A stretch of 61,845 nt of DNA, taken from positions 1 through 61,845 of the forward strand of contig JAFRPF010000028.1 in assembly GCA_017429285.1 (NCBI GenBank). The letters run 5' to 3'. The notes beneath the pieces are model-generated. The model did not search any database and was not told the DNA's origin. It worked only from the letters and a program-made list of their open reading frames with translations. The first letter of the stretch is position 1, and each line of letters opens with the position of its first letter. This document shows, piece by piece, positions 2,180 through 55,695 of this stretch. A program made the translations under genes and the position numbers. This DNA comes from Bacilli bacterium. Lineage in GTDB: Bacteria; Bacillota_I; Bacilli_A; RFN20; CAG-826.

Positions 2180-5011
2180 ATGAAAAAAAGATTACATAAA
2201 AACATGTTATTATCACTTTCATGTTTATTGGGTCTTGGTGGATTAGCTGGTATTGTCTTACTAAATGATAAGGAAGCAGTAGAAGCTAATGCTGCAGCTC
2301 AATATTATGAAATCCCTGAGGCTAGCGTTACTGCTGCACAACTTATTAGCGGTAGTGGCCCGTGGTCTGCATACACGAATGCTACAATCACTAGCGAAAA
2401 AATAGGTGATGTAACTTACGCTAAAATAAAGCAAACCACTGCGGGAGCCAATAACAAAAGAGCAGCTATTAAATATAGCGGTAATGAACATAAATTTAGA
2501 AAATGGGTATTAACCTATACTCTTACTTCTGATACAACTTGTCGATTCCAGTTAGGTCAAACAACTGCAACACCTGCTGCACTTGTGAAAACGTTAGAAA
2601 AAGGTACATTAAAAACTGTTTCTCACGAATATAGCTATGATGAGTATCTTTCTAATGATAGTAGCAATGTATATTCGTTCTATCCTAACGTTGATACCGA
2701 TGCTCTATATATTTATAGCTTTACTTTTTATGAATATGCAGAAGCTTATTCAGCAACTATCACTGCTGGTAGTGGTATAGAATCCGCATTTTTATCTACA
2801 GCAACAAACGCCACATCTGGTAGTACAAGTGGTACAAGCTTTAAAAAAGGATCTACAGTTTATGGCTATGTCAGTTTAAAGGCAGGTTATAATCCAAATA
2901 CGTCTGGTTGGACTCAGATAAGTGGCAACATTTATCGAATCAAAGAAGGAAAGACAATTAACAATTCCGCTGTTGATTTTGGAACTATAAGCGCTCCAAG
3001 TGCCATAAAATATACCATTTCTTATAACTTAGGTGGTGGTAGTAGTGATTCTAATCCTACTGAATATGACGTTAACTCCGAGAATTTCACTTTAAATAAT
3101 CCAACTAAAACCGGATATACCTTTGCTGGTTGGACTGGAACTGGTCTTAGTGAACCAACAGTTACAGTTACAGTTAAAAAAGGTTCGATGGGTAATAGAA
3201 GTTACACTGCTAACTGGACACCAAATCAATATAACATCACTTACTATGATGGTATCAGTGGTAGTAGCTACTCTGGAGATAACTCTGGTTCTTTAATTGG
3301 CAAGCACACTTATGGCACTGATACTAACTTAGTTGATGGTCATAAACTTGGTTACACCTTTAACGGTTGGTTTGATAACGTTAAATGCGAAGGCGAACCT
3401 ATTACCGTTTTAAATGGAACAAGTTATCTCAGTGGCATTACCTTATATGCTAAATGGACAATTAATGCCGCTATTCAAAATGCCATTGATAAAATCAATG
3501 AAATCGGTGAAGTTACTTATCCAGGAAGCAAGGATAAAATCGAAGCCGCTAGAGCAGCTTATGAAGCAGTCCTTCCTGAATCTGATAGAGAAGCTGTCAC
3601 AAACTATGCCACTTTACTTGCCGCTGAAGCAACTTATGCAAATTTAGAAAATCAAGCAAAAGCAAATGCTGTTAAGGATTTAATTACTGCCATTGGAGAA
3701 GTCTCTTATCCAGGTAGCAAAGATGAAATTGATGCAGCAAGAGCAGCATACAATGATTTAACATCTGATCAAAAAGCTTTAGTTACTAACTACTCAATAT
3801 TAACTGATGCAGAAAGCACATATGCTTCATTAAGAAGTGCTGCAATTGACAATGTTGAAAGCTTAATTACTGCTATCGGTGAAGTCTCTTATCCAGGTAG
3901 TAAAGATGAAATTGATGAAGCAAGAGCAGCATACAATGCATTACTTGATTCTGATCAACCTGAAGTCAGTAATCGTGATGATTTATTCGCCGCAGAAGCA
4001 AGATATCAAGAATTAGAAGCCGCTCACGTAGATGCTGAATCTGTCAAAGCTTTAATTAGCGCCATTGGCGATGTTAAATACCCTGATAGCAAAGCTGGTA
4101 TTGAGGCTGCTAGAGAAGCATATGACGCATTATCAAGTGATGCAAAATCAATGGTTGATAATTTAGCAACATTGACTGCTGCAGAAAGCACATATGCTTC
4201 ATTAAGAAGTGCTGCAATTGATAATGTTGAAGCTTTAATTGATGCTATTGGCGAAGTTAAATACACCGGTAGTAAAGATGCTATCAAAGCCGCAAGAGAT
4301 TCATATAATGCATTGTTTGAAGGTGATCAACCAGAAGTCAGCAATTATGATGTATTATTAGCTGCTGAAGCAAAATACGCCCAATTAGCAAAAGAAGGCG
4401 CTGATGCTGTTAAAGCATTAATCGATGGAATTGGTAATTTTGAATACACTCAAGATTGCAAAGATAAGATTGATGCAGCAAGAGCAGCTTATGATGCTTT
4501 AACCGAAGAACAAAAAGCTTTAGTCGCAAACTACATTACATTAACTCACGATGAAGATATTTATTATCACATCACAGTTGTTGTTGAGCTAATTGAAAGC
4601 ATCGGCAATGTTGAATATAGCAAAGAAAGCCAAGAAAAAATTGAAGCCGCTAGAGAAGCATACGATGCTTTAAGCGAAGAAGAAAAGAACGCTATCCCAG
4701 CTGCTAAAGTTGACATCCTTGTTCAAGCTGAACAAGCATATGAAGAATTAGTTGAAGCCCATAAGGGTCTTCCAGGCTGGGCGATTGCTCTTATCGTTAT
4801 CTGTAGTGTTATTTTAGCCTGCTTATTATGCTACGTAGTCTTATTCTTTTTACTTAATAAGTGGATTAAAAAAGACGGAAAAGCAATTAGAGTCTTACCA
4901 TTTAAGTTAGGTAAGAAAGATGGCAAGTCTAGAGTCATGGTCTTCCCATGCAAGATTGAATATCGTGAAAATAACGAAATCTTCAATTCAAAAGAAGACG
5001 CTCTTAAATAA
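2180..5011 (+). CDS. Large surface protein: InlB-type repeats plus seven helical repeats, membrane anchored
   Basis: 943 residues with a strong Shine-Dalgarno (AAAGGAGG) and an N-terminal signal (MKKRLHKNMLLSLSCLLGLGG). Order: signal, an unassigned beta-rich region, two Listeria-Bacteroides (InlB B) repeats around residues 280-430 marked by FAGWTG and FNGWFD, then seven repeats of about 58 residues (core AARAAYxALxxDQKAxVxNY, each opening with IGEVxYPGSK). It ends with one membrane helix near 870-895 and a cytosolic basic tail containing GKKDGK. The same repeats and tail occur in the protein at 30117-32216. A 42-base sequence is repeated exactly at 3808-3849 and 4180-4221, so repeat number could change by recombination. 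Likely adhesin or cell-surface scaffold; ligand unknown. Confidence 0.85.
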   Translation: MKKRLHKNMLLSLSCLLGLGGLAGIVLLNDKEAVEANAAAQYYEIPEASVTAAQLISGSGPWSAYTNATITSEKIGDVTYAKIKQTTAGANNKRAAIKYSGNEHKFRKWVLTYTLTSDTTCRFQLGQTTATPAALVKTLEKGTLKTVSHEYSYDEYLSNDSSNVYSFYPNVDTDALYIYSFTFYEYAEAYSATITAGSGIESAFLSTATNATSGSTSGTSFKKGSTVYGYVSLKAGYNPNTSGWTQISGNIYRIKEGKTINNSAVDFGTISAPSAIKYTISYNLGGGSSDSNPTEYDVNSENFTLNNPTKTGYTFAGWTGTGLSEPTVTVTVKKGSMGNRSYTANWTPNQYNITYYDGISGSSYSGDNSGSLIGKHTYGTDTNLVDGHKLGYTFNGWFDNVKCEGEPITVLNGTSYLSGITLYAKWTINAAIQNAIDKINEIGEVTYPGSKDKIEAARAAYEAVLPESDREAVTNYATLLAAEATYANLENQAKANAVKDLITAIGEVSYPGSKDEIDAARAAYNDLTSDQKALVTNYSILTDAESTYASLRSAAIDNVESLITAIGEVSYPGSKDEIDEARAAYNALLDSDQPEVSNRDDLFAAEARYQELEAAHVDAESVKALISAIGDVKYPDSKAGIEAAREAYDALSSDAKSMVDNLATLTAAESTYASLRSAAIDNVEALIDAIGEVKYTGSKDAIKAARDSYNALFEGDQPEVSNYDVLLAAEAKYAQLAKEGADAVKALIDGIGNFEYTQDCKDKIDAARAAYDALTEEQKALVANYITLTHDEDIYYHITVVVELIESIGNVEYSKESQEKIEAAREAYDALSEEEKNAIPAAKVDILVQAEQAYEELVEAHKGLPGWAIALIVICSVILACLLCYVVLFFLLNKWIKKDGKAIRVLPFKLGKKDGKSRVMVFPCKIEYRENNEIFNSKEDALK

Positions 5012-5031
5012 GAGATAGATAATGATTATGG

Positions 5032-5056
5032 GGTCTGTGTTATGCAGACCTTTTTA
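5032..5056 (+). terminator. Terminator after the repeat surface protein
   Basis: GGTCTG/CAGACC stem, 7-base loop, T-rich tail. Confidence 0.8.
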
Positions 5057-5099
5057 AAACAATTTAAACAATTAATATAATCTTGCTAAAATAGAGCTG

Positions 5100-5798
5100 A
5101 TGAGAAACCTGGCAAAATTCGGAATAACTTTGTTATCTATTACTTCTTTAGTGGCTTGTGGCTCTAAAGGTTATAAAGAACAATCAGCGGATGCTTTCTA
5201 TCTTAAGCACGCTTATTCCTTTGATCCTACGACAGTTAAAAGTGGCCAATATTTGTTAAGCGGTTTTTACCATAACACCGAGGAATTTGGCTCAAAGGTG
5301 ATTATCTCTCTTATCCATAATTCCGATGGTGACCACGGAACTGGTGGAAGTGGGCAACAATATAAATGCATCGAAGAATTTCTCAAGAAAAGAAAAGATG
5401 TCAAATTCTATTGCATCTACATGGATTCCTATTTGGGCGGAGGCAAATACTATAAAGACAAAATAAACGCCAAAACTGGAATGGCTTATGGAACTCAAAT
5501 TATCGATACATTCTATAGCAATAACCTTGCCGATATCATGGATGAAGCTAAAGAGGTCTATATGAATTCTCCTTTTGGAAGCCATGACTATGATTTAAAT
5601 GTAAACGGCAGTTTCAATTGGGTCTATAGTTGGGGTTTAAACGATCCTATCCCATTTAACTTCTATGTCGATAACACAGAAACTAAACCAAACTACCATA
5701 GCAAGATATATCAACTAAGCGAAATATATCCATTCCATTTCGATTCAGTTGAAACGATTGAGAACATGGTGGATCATCAAGGATTCTTCAAAGAATAA
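5100..5798 (+). CDS. Lipoprotein of unknown function
   Basis: 232 residues. The N-terminus MRNLAKFGITLLSITSLVAC is a lipoprotein signal with lipobox LVAC, so the mature protein should be lipid-anchored on the outer face of the membrane. The rest has no family I recognise. It is rich in Tyr, Asp and Gly, with a stretch GTGGSGQQYKCIEEFLKK that could be a loop and helix. A -10 box (TAAAAT, preceded by TTGC) ends 7 bases before the ATG and no Shine-Dalgarno is present, so the mRNA is probably leaderless. It is followed by its own terminator and stands as a single-gene unit. Confidence 0.75.
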   Translation: MRNLAKFGITLLSITSLVACGSKGYKEQSADAFYLKHAYSFDPTTVKSGQYLLSGFYHNTEEFGSKVIISLIHNSDGDHGTGGSGQQYKCIEEFLKKRKDVKFYCIYMDSYLGGGKYYKDKINAKTGMAYGTQIIDTFYSNNLADIMDEAKEVYMNSPFGSHDYDLNVNGSFNWVYSWGLNDPIPFNFYVDNTETKPNYHSKIYQLSEIYPFHFDSVETIENMVDHQGFFKE

Positions 5799-50326: not shown

Positions 50327-50402
50327 GCCTACCTAGCTCAGTCGGTAGAGCTATCGGCTGTTAACCGATCGGTCATAGGTTCGAGTCCTATGGTAGGCGC
50401 CA
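50327..50402 (+). tRNA. tRNA-Asn (anticodon GTT)
   Basis: Acceptor GCCTACC with GGTAGGC, anticodon arm ATCGG-CTGTTAA-CCGAT gives GTT, CCA encoded. TGGTAATAT near 50289 is a plausible extended -10. Confidence 0.95.
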
Positions 50403-50404
50403 CT

Positions 50405-50481
50405 GGCCCATTGGAGAAGTGGCTTAACTCACATGCCTTTCACGCATGCATTCATGGGTTCGAATCCCGTATGGGTCACCA
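50405..50481 (+). tRNA. tRNA-Glu (anticodon TTC)
   Basis: Acceptor GGCCCAT with ATGGGTC, anticodon arm CATGC-CTTTCAC-GCATG gives TTC, T-arm GGGTTCGAATCCC, CCA encoded. Its last four bases (ACCA) are the first bases of a 43-base repeat that recurs at 51881. Confidence 0.95.
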
Positions 50482-50520
50482 CTTAGTTAAATTGGATTGA
50501 TACAAAGTCAATCCTTTTTT
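50478..50520 (+). repeat. Dispersed terminator repeat, copy 2, fused to the tRNA-Glu 3' end
   Basis: ACCACTTAGTTAAATTGG, then the perfect hairpin GGATTGA-TACAAAG-TCAATCC and six or more T. Natural terminator of the tRNA operon. Identical over 43 bases to copy 3 at 51881-51923. Confidence 0.9.
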
Positions 50521-50577: not shown

Positions 50578-51075
50578 ATGATACGTAAAATCAATCTTGG
50601 CAATAAAAAAGAGGCAATTAAAGCATTTGAAATCTTCAAAGCAAATGATTATGCTCCTTTTGATATTGAGTTACTTAATTCTCATTTAAAAAATATTAAT
50701 GACAACTTAGATATTAATGTTTTTAGAAAGAGCTCTCTTTTTATTACTAGCAAAACGTTATGGGAATGTATGCAACCATTAGGAGCTAAGGGCAAGCACA
50801 ATTTTCATGGTCTTTCACCAGAAGAGATCTATGACTCTTTGCGCGATTTGCAAAACACTAGATGCATATTAAGTGCGTACGGAACTAGATTTGTTATTGT
50901 GACAAGCATAATTGCTAGCTGTGGAGATCCAATCATCGCAATAGTAGAAACAGGTTCTCCTTTAACCTTAAATCGTAACGCAAACATCAACAAAGTAGTC
51001 ACTTTATATCCTAAGAAAAAGCTAGATAATTACATAAATAATATTCATAAAAGAAAAATAATTATAAAAAAATGA
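50578..51075 (+). CDS. Small PBECR/MuF-C-like putative nuclease-fold protein
   Basis: 165 residues from ATG 50578. Upstream in-frame codons exist but would run through the palindromic promoter. Residues 53-165 follow the pattern of PBECR/MuF C-terminal domains (phage-barnase-EndoU-ColicinE5/D-RelE-like fold): LFITSKTLWECM, GKHNF with a His near 74, LSPEEIYDSLRDL, RFVIVTSI, PIIAIVETG. Such domains act as toxins at the end of phage or polymorphic proteins or as small stand-alone RNases. Start is probably leaderless. A structured RNA and an XRE regulator follow in the same segment. Family assignment is by pattern, not by search. Confidence 0.5.
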   Translation: MIRKINLGNKKEAIKAFEIFKANDYAPFDIELLNSHLKNINDNLDINVFRKSSLFITSKTLWECMQPLGAKGKHNFHGLSPEEIYDSLRDLQNTRCILSAYGTRFVIVTSIIASCGDPIIAIVETGSPLTLNRNANINKVVTLYPKKKLDNYINNIHKRKIIIKK

Positions 51076-51164
51076 ACCGAGGAAGGCTCCATTTGCCAAC
51101 TTGGGTTCACACTTATATTATATATAATTTGCACTTGTTGTCAAAATGAATTTTCAATCTTAGA

Positions 51165-51192
51165 TTGATGTGTGCTGATATATTGATATAAT
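51165..51192 (+). promoter_or_regulatory. Promoter of structured RNA A
   Basis: TTGATG (51165-51170), 16-base spacer, TATAAT (51187-51192). The predicted start (about 51198) falls on the first base pairs of the RNA closing helix. Confidence 0.6.
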
Positions 51193-51196
51193 ATCA

Positions 51197-51319
51197 TTGT
51201 CAAAGGTGGAAAGTCGCTGTGCGACCACGACGCATTTCTTCGGAAATGGATTGACTAGCGATTCAGGATGCAGCGCCTTGATTGACAAATAATAACGTCT
51301 CATTAGAGATGTTTTTTTT
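51197..51319 (+). ncRNA. Structured RNA A, one module of a new RNA family
   Basis: Closing helix TTGTCAA (51197-51203) with TTGACAA (51282-51288). Inside: GTGG/CCAC enclosing TCGC-TGT-GCGA; GACGC/GCGCC (one mismatch); and CATTTC-TTCG-GAAATG. Conserved single-stranded core GCGATTCAGG (51258-51267). A terminator follows, CGTCTC-ATTA-GAGATG with eight T (51296-51319). Homologous to both modules of RNA B, where paired positions change together. Total about 120 bases. It has its own promoter. I know no named RNA family with this pattern. Confidence 0.75.
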
Positions 51320-51382
51320 AGCAACAACGCGTTGCTTGATAACAAAACCAATGGTCATAAAATATAGTTAGAGGTAAGCAAA

Positions 51383-51829
51383 ATGGAAACTAAAGACATA
51401 TTATTAGAATTAAGAACAAAGAATAATTTATCCCAAGAAGAATTGGCAGAAAAAGTGATGGTTACTAGACAAGCCGTATCAAGATGGGAGACGGGTGAAA
51501 CAACTCCTAATACTGAAACATTAAAGTTATTATCTAAACTATTTGATGTATCAATTAATACTCTACTTGGGTCTCCAATGCAACTAGTGTGCCAATGCTG
51601 TGGCATGCCTTTACAAGATTCATTAATGAGTAAAGAAAAAGATGGTTCTTTTAACGAAGATTACTGTCAGTGGTGCTATCACGACGAGAAATTCACTTAC
51701 GACAATATGGATGATTTAATCAACGCATGCATTCCTCATATGGTCGCTCAGGGTTTTCCTGAAGACCAAGCTAGAACTTATATGAGAGGAATGCTTCCAA
51801 ATCTCAAGTATTGGAAAGAAAAACAATAG
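51383..51829 (+). CDS. XRE regulator fused to a putative zinc-ribbon domain
   Basis: 148 residues. N-terminal helix-turn-helix (LSQEELAEKVMVTRQAVSRW, about 15-34), then a zinc-ribbon-like domain with Cys pairs: CQCCGMPL (near 72) and YCQWCYHDEKFT (near 93), followed by a helical tail (ENMDD-like DNMDDLINACIPHMVAQGFP). This XRE plus zinc ribbon arrangement is common in gut Firmicutes. Shine-Dalgarno AGAGGT. It lies in the segment with the PBECR-like ORF and RNA A and ends exactly at the GTGTTCG repeat. Confidence 0.88.
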   Translation: METKDILLELRTKNNLSQEELAEKVMVTRQAVSRWETGETTPNTETLKLLSKLFDVSINTLLGSPMQLVCQCCGMPLQDSLMSKEKDGSFNEDYCQWCYHDEKFTYDNMDDLINACIPHMVAQGFPEDQARTYMRGMLPNLKYWKEKQ

Positions 51830-51876
51830 TGTTCGTCAAATACTTCAAAGTGTTCGGTTGTATCAAAACACTGTAA
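51828..51876 (+). repeat. GTGTTCGG cassette-end repeat, copy 2 of 2
   Basis: Begins in the TAG stop of the XRE gene (AGTGTTCGTC), repeats GTGTTCGG at 51850; 51850-51876 is identical to 27411-27437. AGTGTT/AACACT can pair. Followed after four bases by copy 3 of the terminator repeat. Confidence 0.85.
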
Positions 51877-51880
51877 ACAA

Positions 51881-51923
51881 ACCACTTAGTTAAATTGGAT
51901 TGATACAAAGTCAATCCTTTTTT
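51881..51923 (+). repeat. Dispersed terminator repeat, copy 3
   Basis: 43 bases identical to 50478-50520, including the ACCA that in copy 2 is the tRNA-Glu 3' end. The two copies bracket 1.36 kb like direct-repeat attachment sites. Confidence 0.9.
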
Positions 51924-52019
51924 CTTGCCTTTATTGAACAATTATAGTGATATTATATATTTGATTAAATTCAATGAATTTATAATGACATATATACAAT
52001 AAAATGATATTCTTTTAAT

Positions 52020-52385
52020 ATGCCTAAAAAGAATAAAGAATATGATCAGAACGTAATAGCTGCATTGAAAGCTCTCCCGGTGCCACTTAAAACTTATAAT
52101 GGCAGTGAGGTTCGTTTTGACGTAGACAAAAGAGAAGAAACTATCTTTGAACACATTGCAAACAAAGAACATCATATCCATGTTAAAGATGTTGCTGTTA
52201 TTCCTACGATTTTACGTGATAAAGAATCTTTGAAGAATGATAGGAATGGACGCAAATTTAAAACCTATATAGGAAAAAGAGGAAAGAAAAAAGAAAGATT
52301 GAAGTATTTGAAGATAGTTACTGAAGTAAAAAAGAATAAGAAAGAATCAGTTGTTACGATATATCCAGTCAAAAATAACGATTGA
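52020..52385 (+). CDS. Second small PBECR-like putative nuclease-fold protein
   Basis: 121 residues. The pattern HIANKEHHIHVKDVAVIPTI, LKNDRNGRKFKTYIGKRGKK and KYLKIVTEVKKNKKESVVTI follows PBECR-type domains: a His cluster, an 'IP-x-I-L-x-D-x-x-x-L' turn, basic beta hairpin and a closing Thr strand. It is very basic, as an RNA-binding protein would be. Low sequence similarity to the 50578 product but similar size and the same RNA partner. GATATT ends 8 bases before the ATG with no Shine-Dalgarno. The promoter of RNA B overlaps its stop codon. Confidence 0.5.
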   Translation: MPKKNKEYDQNVIAALKALPVPLKTYNGSEVRFDVDKREETIFEHIANKEHHIHVKDVAVIPTILRDKESLKNDRNGRKFKTYIGKRGKKKERLKYLKIVTEVKKNKKESVVTIYPVKNND

Positions 52386-52410
52386 AAATCGATGTGCATT
52401 CTTATAGAAT
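52382..52410 (+). promoter_or_regulatory. Promoter of structured RNA B
   Basis: TTGAAA (52382-52387), 17-base spacer, TAGAAT (52405-52410). The -35 overlaps the TGA stop of the ORF; the predicted start is at the RNA closing helix (52415-52417). Confidence 0.65.
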
Positions 52411-52414
52411 AATT

Positions 52415-52684
52415 ATGCCAAAGGTGGAGATACAGCAGTCGACCACGGCGCACTCGTAAGGGGTGAAGACTTATAGTCATTACGCGATGCAGGGGGAAGC
52501 CAATAGAAGACCTCTAACGTTCCAGTCGCTTCCTTAATTAGGCTGGCCTGCTTGGCATTATCAAAGGTGGAAAGTCGTTGTGCGACCACGGCGCATTTCT
52601 TAGGAAATGGATGTCGGCGATTCAGGATTCAGCGCCCTGTTTGATAAATAATAACGTCTCATTTGTGATGAGATGTTTTCTTTT
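52415..52684 (+). ncRNA. Structured RNA B, two tandem modules of the same family
   Basis: Module B1: closing helix ATGCCAA (52415-52421) with TTGGCAT (52552-52558); GTGG/CCAC at 52424-52446; hairpin CACTC-GTAAG-GGGTG; an extra branched insertion with GGAAGC/GCTTCC and GCAGG/CCTGC. Module B2: TTATCAA (52558-52564) with TTGATAA (52641-52647); GTGG/CCAC; GGCGC/GCGCC; CATTTC-TTAG-GAAATG. All modules keep AAAGGTGG, CGACCACG, CGCA and GCGATKCAGG. Terminator CGTCTCAT-TTGTG-ATGAGATG and T-run at 52655-52684. About 270 bases with its own promoter. Confidence 0.75.
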
Positions 52685-52720
52685 GTGCTTTTTTGCTATC
52701 ATATTCATATAGAAAAAGAA

Positions 52721-53201: not shown

Positions 53202-53948
53202 ATGAGCGATATAAAGTGGTGCATTGATTATTTAAAAGAATATAACCATATCATAGATAAGCTTTCTTACGATTGGTCAACTTTTAGAGCGCTTTTAAAT
53301 ATTACAATGCCAGTCAATATAAGCGATGAGTTTTACCAAAAACAAGACAAAGTTTTAAAAGATATTTTATCTAGCAAAGAAATAACTGATATCTCATCTT
53401 TTCCTAATGGTATTTCTCTATATAAAGGCGACATTACTCTTATCAAAGCAGATGCGATAGTGAATGCTTGTAATTCTCAAATGCTAGGATGCTTTGTTCC
53501 TGGCCATCACTGTATCGATAACGCTATTCATTCCTTTGCGGGTCTAGAAGTAAGAAGAGACATGTTAGAAATAATGAATAAGCAAGGCCATGAAGAACCT
53601 AATGGACAAGTAAAGGTGTCTAGTTGTTACAATTTACCTGCGAAATATATATTCCATACAGTGGGGCCAATCTATTCAGGAATACATAGAGATGAAACTG
53701 ATTTAGCATGTTGCTATTATTCTTGTTTAAGAAAAGCTGATGAGATGAAACTAGAATCAATTGTGTTTTGTTCTTTATCAACAGGAATATTCGGCTTTCC
53801 GATTGAAAAAGCCTGCAGAATCGCTATTAAATGTGTAAATTCATACTTAAAGGAAGAGAACAAGAATATTAAAAAAGTCATTTTTGACGTCTTTAGTGAT
53901 AGTGACTTTGAGACATATAAAAAGAATATGAAGGAGGTAGGATTATGA
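53202..53948 (+). CDS. Macro domain protein, zinc-dependent SAV0325-like type
   Basis: 248 residues. N-terminal helical extension (about 1-70), then macro domain: ITLIKADAIVNACNSQMLGC, FVPGHHCIDNAIHSFAGLEV, SSCYNLPAKYIFHTVGP and CSLSTGIFGFPIEKA. The Cys/His cluster (NACN, GC, HHC) matches the zinc-containing macrodomains that are encoded beside class M sirtuins and remove ADP-ribose from their targets. Shine-Dalgarno AGGT. ATGA overlap with the next gene; operon with DUF1848 and a sirtuin. Confidence 0.88.
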   Translation: MSDIKWCIDYLKEYNHIIDKLSYDWSTFRALLNITMPVNISDEFYQKQDKVLKDILSSKEITDISSFPNGISLYKGDITLIKADAIVNACNSQMLGCFVPGHHCIDNAIHSFAGLEVRRDMLEIMNKQGHEEPNGQVKVSSCYNLPAKYIFHTVGPIYSGIHRDETDLACCYYSCLRKADEMKLESIVFCSLSTGIFGFPIEKACRIAIKCVNSYLKEENKNIKKVIFDVFSDSDFETYKKNMKEVGL

Positions 53949-54874
53949 TTATAAATACAGGACAAAGAACAGATATACCAGCCTTCTACTCTAAATGGTT
54001 TATGAATCGCATCAAAGAAGGATATGTTTTGGTAAGAAATCCATATTATCCAACTATTGTGACGAAGTTTTTATTAAACCCAGAAGTCGTGGATGTGATT
54101 GGCTTTTGCACAAAAAATCCGCGACCAATGTTTCCCTATCTAGATGAACTGAAAGATTTTGGTCAATTTTGGTATGTTTCCATCACTGGTTTTGATAAAG
54201 ATTTAGAACCTAATGTTCCTCCAATTGATCAAGTAATTGAAGATTTTAAATATCTATCTAACAAAGTTGGAAAGAATGCGATTGGTTGGAGATACACCCC
54301 AATCATTGTGAATAATAAATACACAAAAGAATATCATATTAAGATGTTTGAACATATTGCTTCAAAATTAGATGGCTATACCTCTTTAGTGGCATTTGGT
54401 TTTGTCGATATTTATCCAAAATTAGAAAAGAATCACCCAGAGATTAAAGATACAGATGACAACACTAAAATTGAGATAAGTAAAGCATTTATAGAAATTG
54501 CTAAAAAACATCACATGGATTTAAGACTTTGTTCTAAAGAAAAGTGGCTTGCTAGTTATGGCGTGGATATCGACGGCTGTATGAGAGTGAAAGACTATGA
54601 AAATAGTATCGACTCTAAGTTAGACATTAAACAAAAGATGGAAGCGAGAAAAAATTATTGTGCTTGTTATCTTTCTAATGACATTGGTTCATATAATTCT
54701 TGTATGCATTTATGTAAGTATTGCTATGCGAATGGAAATGAAATAACAATTAGAAAGAATTATAAAGAACATGACGATAACTCTCCTTTATTAATTGGTC
54801 ATATTAATCGAGAAGATAAGATAAGGCTTGCAAAGCAAGAATCTTATAAAAATAACACCATTACCTTATTTTGA
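53945..54874 (+). CDS. DUF1848 protein with C-terminal Cys cluster
   Basis: 309 residues. TIM-barrel-like succession of strands and helices (DIPAFYSKWFMNRIKEGYVL, VIGFCTKNPRP) and a C-terminal cluster CACYLSNDIGSYNSCMHLCK followed by YCYAN, giving at least five Cys that could bind an Fe-S cluster or zinc. This is the DUF1848 pattern; function unknown, distantly reminiscent of radical-SAM or Spl-like proteins. It is coupled to the macro domain gene by a 4-base overlap and followed at 2 bases by the sirtuin. Confidence 0.8.
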   Translation: MIINTGQRTDIPAFYSKWFMNRIKEGYVLVRNPYYPTIVTKFLLNPEVVDVIGFCTKNPRPMFPYLDELKDFGQFWYVSITGFDKDLEPNVPPIDQVIEDFKYLSNKVGKNAIGWRYTPIIVNNKYTKEYHIKMFEHIASKLDGYTSLVAFGFVDIYPKLEKNHPEIKDTDDNTKIEISKAFIEIAKKHHMDLRLCSKEKWLASYGVDIDGCMRVKDYENSIDSKLDIKQKMEARKNYCACYLSNDIGSYNSCMHLCKYCYANGNEITIRKNYKEHDDNSPLLIGHINREDKIRLAKQESYKNNTITLF

Positions 54875-54876
54875 TT

Positions 54877-55695
54877 ATGAAAGAAATTGAAACAATTAAA
54901 AAACTCATAAATGAAGCTGAGACGATAGTGATTGGTGCGGGAGCGGGTTTATCCACTGCCGCTGGATTTGAGTATGGTGGAGATTACTTTTTGGAAAACT
55001 TTTCCGATATTTACAAAAAATACGGCTATACCGATATGTATAGTGCGGGTTTTCACCCATTTTTAACTAGTGAAGAGAAGTGGGGCTATTGGTGTAGATT
55101 TATCTATTTACAGAGATATAAAGAAGGAGCAAAGCCTCTTTATAAAAAACTTTATGAAATGGTCAAGGATAAGAATTATTTTGTGATTACCACTAATGTT
55201 GATCATCAATTCCAACTCGCGGGTTTTTCTAAAGAAAGATTATTTTATACACAAGGTGACTATGGCTTATTTCAATGTTCTAAACCATGTCATAAAAAAA
55301 CATATGATAATGAAAAACAAATATTGGAAATGATTCATTCTCTTAAAGATGGCTTAATTCCCACTCACCTTATTCCTAAATGTCCAATATGTGGAGAAGA
55401 GATGAGCATGAATTTAAGAAGTGATGATACATTCGTGGAAGACGAAGGATGGCATGACGCCGCTCATAGATATGAACAATTTTTAAATGATAACAAAGAT
55501 AAAAAGATACTATTTTTAGAATTAGGAGTGGGGTGGAATACGCCTGTTATCATTAAATATCCATTTATGAGAATGACATATAGTTTAAAAGATGCTTTTT
55601 ATGTTTGTGTTAATAAAGGGTATAACCGCATTCCAGAAGAAATAAAAGATAAATCAATTGTTTTAGATGACGATATCAATGCGCTAGTGAAATAA
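54877..55695 (+). CDS. Class M sirtuin (SirTM-like)
   Basis: 272 residues from ATG 54877. NAD-binding GAGAGLSTAAGFEYGG near the N-terminus, ITTNVDHQFQLAG, and two Cys pairs for zinc (CSKPC and CPICGE). The usual catalytic His segment reads TQGDYG, which is typical of the macrodomain-linked sirtuins that act as protein ADP-ribosyltransferases rather than deacylases. The lipoate-ligase and GcvH-L genes of the classical operon are absent here; DUF1848 takes their place. Confidence 0.85.
   Translation: MKEIETIKKLINEAETIVIGAGAGLSTAAGFEYGGDYFLENFSDIYKKYGYTDMYSAGFHPFLTSEEKWGYWCRFIYLQRYKEGAKPLYKKLYEMVKDKNYFVITTNVDHQFQLAGFSKERLFYTQGDYGLFQCSKPCHKKTYDNEKQILEMIHSLKDGLIPTHLIPKCPICGEEMSMNLRSDDTFVEDEGWHDAAHRYEQFLNDNKDKKILFLELGVGWNTPVIIKYPFMRMTYSLKDAFYVCVNKGYNRIPEEIKDKSIVLDDDINALVK

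Follow-up and report, generated by a model that had tools for sequence, protein, structure and literature searches.

The stretch of DNA analyzed here (the window) comprises positions 1 to 61,845 (61,845 nt) of contig JAFRPF010000028.1 from a Bacilli bacterium, whose genome assembly (GCA_017429285.1) amounts to 1.26 Mb in 44 contigs. Two small cassettes in the window combine a small open reading frame (ORF) with structured RNA. A first-pass annotation had described three homologous RNA modules here (m1, m2, and m3), each closed by its own helix, and when we rechecked the sequence the modules, their coordinates, and their closing helices were as described. Cassette I consists of a MuF_C-domain ORF, a short hairpin, m1, and a helix-turn-helix (HTH)/zinc-ribbon gene; cassette II consists of an ORF that we term c0, followed by m2 and m3. 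The features are as follows (bit scores are from cmsearch):

50578–51075, forward strand: stand-alone MuF_C-domain protein of 165 aa (Pfam PF18819), proposed toxin of module I (cassette I)
51073–51109, forward strand: 37-nt hairpin RNA that begins at the MuF_C stop codon and is proposed to be the cognate RNA of module I (cassette I)
51197–51288, forward strand: RNA module m1 (type A), with its own promoter (TATAAT 3 nt upstream) and terminator and no c0 upstream; 82.5 bits (cassette I)
51383–51829: HTH/zinc-ribbon gene (cassette I)
52020–52385, forward strand: c0 gene, encoding a 121-aa predicted BECR (PBECR/MuF-C-like) RNase, proposed toxin of module II (cassette II)
52415–52558, forward strand: RNA module m2 (type B), 29 nt after c0, proposed antitoxin; −10 box TAGAAT 3 nt upstream; 61.2 bits (cassette II)
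52558–52647, forward strand: RNA module m3 (type A), behind m2; terminator after it; 84.6 bits (cassette II)
52648–52686, forward strand: terminator-like hairpin and T-rich run after m3, read from the sequence

Because m3 has no promoter of its own and m2 has no terminator, we regard the two as fused in tandem; similar fusions are present at two other loci (L285 and L105). The earlier statement that each transcript has its own promoter therefore holds for m1 and m2, which have a −10 box, but not for m3. Each transcript had also been placed after a small ORF; m1, however, is separated from the MuF_C ORF by another conserved hairpin.

The module types tested had no match in Rfam at the gathering score or at E ≤ 1, and the matches seen at low thresholds were chance only. 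A covariance model of the RNA found 133 copies in 69 of the 279 genomes of the order, all within one family of small uncultured Bacilli. These copy numbers are minima because the filters of the genome-wide search were strict; the contigs of the metagenome-assembled genomes (MAGs) are also fragmentary. Across 296 genomes of the class, the model matched only the same bacterial family. A tight DNA pattern of the RNA, searched with one genome per species, matched 65 stretches, nearly all from MAGs titled Bacilli, Bacillales, or Erysipelotrichaceae and many of them from rumen or gut; four matches in other phyla were chance matches, and no virus matched. Viral matches to a looser pattern were not used, as chance matches are expected at that looseness. 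A fourth copy in the window's own genome (G000:C3:97349-97476, L266) is of type E and has no c0 beside it.

Alignment of 39 relatives confirmed the covariation that had been proposed. All 7 pairs of the closing helix (P1) changed on both sides, with 95.6% of cells paired, and every one of the 5 pairs of hairpin P4 showed two-sided changes (96.4% paired). The alignment also revealed a feature absent from the first-pass description, a 4-bp pseudoknot joining the loops of P2 and P4, all of whose pairs showed two-sided changes (98.1% paired). Over the whole structure, 92.4% of cells paired, and the covariation score was 0.402, compared with 0.198 ± 0.009 for shuffled alignments and at most 0.111 when the pairing partners were slid. 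The RNAs are 90–180 nt long, and types are distinguished by inserts, which lie in the P2 loop in type E and in the P4 loop in type B. Copies are usually single, and arrays of two to four occur at L303, L285, and L048 and in the window; at L303 (1939–3297, on a 4-kb contig), four copies of differing types surround one c0 gene.

A −10 hexamer with at least 5 of 6 matches preceded 86% of 96 copies (38% in shuffled sequence), and in 77 of the 96 it lay exactly 3 nt ahead of the RNA. A terminator-like hairpin with a T run followed 91% of the copies (12% in shuffled sequence). The −10 box at fixed spacing and the terminators indicate that the RNA is a free-standing transcript. We conclude that the three modules belong to a real, undescribed RNA family that is absent from Rfam; with 133 copies in the genomes searched and strong covariation, it is a large new structured family fit for an Rfam entry.

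Clustering of the ORFs around the RNA copies yielded one protein family, c0, whose genes end about 20–45 nt ahead of the RNA in otherwise unrelated neighborhoods. A c0 profile seeded from ORFs adjoining the RNA gave 69 matches in the same 279 genomes, which correspond to 65 genes once a 30-aa fragment and three matches that are second pieces of decayed genes are discounted. In 62 of the 65, the RNA lies 20–117 nt downstream on the same strand (median 38 nt). The three exceptions are a gene whose contig ends 134 nt after it and two distant c0 relatives with divergent RNAs, one downstream in genome G010 (E = 1.3e-4) and one on the opposite strand in genome G189 (E = 0.009). All 65 c0 genes are compatible with having the RNA. 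The first-pass annotation had assigned one RNA family to both ORFs of the locus; this did not hold, as the obligate partner of the RNA is the ORF at 52020–52385, and the MuF_C ORF elsewhere usually lacks this RNA and has a different short RNA after its stop codon.

Among 395 genomes of the class Bacilli, the c0 profile matched only the same family, plus three matches within a 413-aa ORF of a housekeeping gene cluster, which have no RNA nearby and which we take as chance. Phage and plasmid records gave no c0 match. At L358 (2656–3320), a distant c0 relative of 187 aa follows a 441-aa gene that is HipA-like by eye, and the RNA lies on the opposite strand. Behind a c0 and RNA unit at L267, a gap (4630–5321) holds three cow-rumen-1 RNAs (RF02946), and equivalent gaps of about 1 kb occur at L269, L323, and L278.

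The linkage runs one way. RNA relatives lying mostly away from such ORFs had been named beforehand as an outcome that would speak against a partnership, and for the RNA this is partly the case: 59 of the 133 copies lack a c0 gene closer than 1.2 kb. It is not the case for the protein, since every c0 has or may have an RNA. When 57 RNA copies were tested closely, at least 41 had no trace of c0 in the 800 nt upstream, and the rest lay in tandem behind a c0 and RNA unit or behind decayed c0 remnants. Five genomes (G221, G197, G149, G098, and G153) have c0 genes with internal stops that still have the RNA behind them. The RNAs pair equally well whether c0 is present or absent (P1, 93% versus 94%; P4, 99% versus 97%; pseudoknot, 37 of 38 versus 54 of 55). 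Module m1 is probably such a stray copy without its c0 partner. Copies without c0, together with the multicopy, sporadic distribution and a shared tRNA-linked insertion site, would suit an RNA that hitch-hikes with c0, be it a regulatory or housekeeping RNA with an independent role or a small mobile RNA element. We consider this improbable, as c0 was never clearly found without the RNA, their spacing is near-constant in unrelated contexts, and the two co-diversify.

Distances among c0 proteins and among their RNAs correlate (Mantel r = 0.68, 0 of 2000 permutations), although such a correlation would also arise from linkage alone, and type-B RNAs accompany related c0 proteins. Obligate linkage and co-diversification would suit any ribonucleoprotein, so the RNA might instead activate or direct c0 as its guide, cofactor, or scaffold, as in an RNA-guided nuclease. 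In favor of this, the loops and inserts differ between RNA types, and PMC12373285 indicates that the RNA partners of HEPN/AbiF-type RNases can become guides. The variable parts of the present RNA are mostly base-paired hairpins with no exposed guide, however, and the many RNAs without c0, like the intact RNAs beside decayed c0 genes, would be odd for an activator; we regard this explanation as unlikely, slightly more so than hitch-hiking.

Adjacency to c0 could also mean that the RNA controls c0 expression, either in cis or by antisense pairing (type I-like). Antisense matches between the RNAs and their own c0 mRNAs showed no excess (mean 7.19 versus 7.16 nt), the RNA is found downstream of c0 and has a promoter and a terminator of its own, a complex conserved pseudoknotted fold is unneeded for antisense action, and many copies have no c0. 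Of the explanations considered, we give control in cis or by antisense the least credence. Two shared insertion sites aside, c0 has no recurrent protein-coding neighbor, and so no protein antitoxin is evident.

Several observations suggest what c0 may be. Residues R38, H45, H51, D57, and R87 are invariant in the 36-member c0 family, and a Thr/Ser in the last strand is nearly so. PBECR nucleases have a conserved His plus a C-terminal Thr/Ser, as described in PMC5512222, and c0 has both, the His lying in its N-terminal helix. Two AlphaFold models of c0 proteins are confident (window c0, pLDDT 86 and pTM 0.79). In a viral structure library, the top matches of a relative (L306) were polyvalent proteins and MuF C-terminal proteins (E = 8e-4 to 0.02, probability 0.95–1.0, TM score of about 0.5). 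The top Protein Data Bank (PDB) match of the window c0 was a weak one to CdiA-CT Kp342, a BECR tRNase that cuts the acceptor regions of tRNAs (PMC9071432); a second PDB search returned BrnT (probability 0.87) and unrelated folds. By these models, c0 looks like the phage MuF-C/PBECR (BECR-fold) nucleases, and we infer that it is a toxic RNase. None of the 36 members matched a ToxN-type Pfam or NCBIfam family, and c0 has no sequence homology to the MuF_C ORF.

Module II is thus, in our judgment, probably a toxin-antitoxin pair in which a structured RNA serves as the antitoxin and acts on the protein. In this model, c0 would be a small, toxic BECR-fold endoribonuclease. The RNA, which by its sequence signals is made from its own promoter just after c0 and ends at its own terminator, folds with a closing stem, two hairpins, and a conserved core, held together by the loop-loop pseudoknot, and would bind and block c0. 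Loss of the RNA would free the toxin, and so c0 could not persist without it; lone or tandem RNA copies may persist as protection from other c0 variants. The asymmetry between c0 and RNA is as expected of an antitoxin, and an RNA-neutralized toxin fits the one-way linkage, the tandem arrays, and the decayed c0 genes beside intact RNAs. The RNA might even act as a substrate mimic of tRNA. Its arms (a 7-bp closing stem, then arms of 4, 5–7, and 5 bp) and the contact between the first and last loops are similar to the tRNA cloverleaf in stem length and order, and the top solved-fold match of c0 is a tRNase.

Other results weigh against this model or parts of it. The inner P2 helix (GUGG/CCAC) is invariant in the main set of 39 copies, and because P2 never varies there and so shows no covariation, the cloverleaf reading is only suggestive; the distant copy in G189 appears to swap P2 for GGAG/CUCC, a suggestive case at most. 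Neither ARAGORN nor Rfam called a tRNA at the modules. The c0 protein falls below the Pfam cut-offs (best E = 2.4e-4 for PBECR3 and 2.2e-3 for MuF_C), and no PDB fold match reached E ≤ 0.001. Very distant c0 relatives without RNA could have been missed because the profile was built from ORFs adjoining RNAs. The position of the RNA, downstream of the protein, departs from that in classical type III systems, and the toxicity, RNase activity, and binding of c0 are properties that we infer.

The ORF of cassette I may belong to a second system. It matches PF18819 (MuF_C) at 29.2 bits, above the gathering cut-off of 27.6, and related genes are present in 31 of the order's genomes, mostly without the c0-linked RNA. 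The same short motif lies directly 3′ of the MuF_C stop codon at nine of the loci compared (L379–L398); it follows MuF_C genes in G202, G232, G002, G095, G211, G013, G212, and G210 and is present twice, in tandem, in G002 and G211. RNAalifold predicts a hairpin in which 3 of 11 pairs change on both sides; its z score is −3.28. Judged by sequence, the MuF_C ORF and the hairpin at 51073–51109 seem to be a second candidate RNA-protein system. Longer repeats follow MuF_C genes in G235, G148, G001, and G208.

The earlier proposal of small BECR/PBECR-type ORFs with a type III-like RNA partner thus survives in that the linkage is consistent with a toxin-antitoxin pair, but not in the sharing of one RNA family, and the best reading of the locus is two type III-like toxin-antitoxin systems with BECR-fold toxins. 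A bolder version would make these a new class of RNA-neutralized toxin-antitoxin systems, in which two unrelated RNA families would have become antitoxins of BECR-fold (PBECR/MuF-C) RNases. The RNA of one family, a pseudoknotted cloverleaf, would mimic tRNA and in this way inhibit a toxin that cleaves tRNA, and RNA-only arrays would serve as immunity genes; this version we hold to be doubtful.

The cassettes lie behind tRNA genes, and a perfect direct repeat brackets the MuF_C cassette:

50327–50481: tRNA-Asn and tRNA-Glu, ahead of the two cassettes
50478–50520, forward strand: 43-nt direct repeat, copy 1, from the tRNA-Glu 3′ end; 100% identical to 51881–51923
51881–51923, forward strand: 43-nt direct repeat, copy 2, between cassettes I and II

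A pilus/acyl carrier protein (ACP) gene neighborhood is also found near c0 or MuF_C cassettes in other genomes and constitutes an insertion hotspot; no integrase was seen near the tRNA-Glu/pilus/ACP hotspot. At 53202–55695, the window has consecutive macrodomain, DUF1848, and SIR2-like genes, which resemble a macrodomain-linked sirtuin operon.

Few kinds of toxin (type III and AbiF) are known to be countered by an RNA antitoxin acting on the protein. If the model is correct, a BECR-fold nuclease kept in check by a structured RNA would extend the list of RNA-neutralized toxins and would suggest partners for stand-alone phage-type MuF-C/PBECR nucleases, and the toxin-less RNA copies suggest RNA-based immunity or anti-addiction. 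The c0 and RNA unit is a compact pair open to testing.

The phage PBECR/MuF-C domains have a small, His-dependent BECR-like fold, which c0 is predicted to resemble, and share with c0 a conserved His and a C-terminal Thr/Ser, and the other ORF of the window is itself a Pfam MuF_C member. The available part of Iyer et al. (2017; PMC5512222) describes these domains as effectors of phages or mobile elements, mostly fused to MuF, portal, or polyvalent proteins, and mentions no RNA partner for them. The BECR tRNase toxins CdiA-CT and colicin D have a fold similar to that predicted for c0, but they are secreted and are neutralized by immunity proteins instead of RNA; the colicin D immunity protein is described as tRNA-mimicking in a title cited in PMC9071432. 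AbiF is, according to PMC12373285, a toxic RNase-type protein neutralized by a structured RNA active in trans. It shares with c0 an RNase-type protein with a structured RNA partner, neutralization here being proposed, but the AbiF protein is HEPN/Abi_2, its RNA lies upstream, and the abiF RNA model (RF03085) did not match the RNA modules.

With the type III systems (ToxIN, CptIN, and TenpIN), the c0 pair shares a small endoribonuclease (here predicted), a sporadic distribution, tandem copies at some loci, and an RNA, proposed to bind the toxin, that is pseudoknotted, here through the 4-bp loop-loop contact with two-sided changes in every pair. To our knowledge, ToxN-type toxins do not have the BECR fold. 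The c0 protein matched no ToxN/AbiQ/CptN/TenpN family, and its best fold matches were MuF-C/BECR proteins. In type III loci, RNA repeats lie upstream of the toxin under one promoter with a terminator between (PMC5086642), whereas here the RNA is downstream by 20–117 nt, has its own −10 box and terminator, is usually single, and is unlike any Rfam family. The c0 and RNA pair would work like a type III system, but it is not a member, as the predicted toxin fold, gene order, promoter, and RNA all differ.
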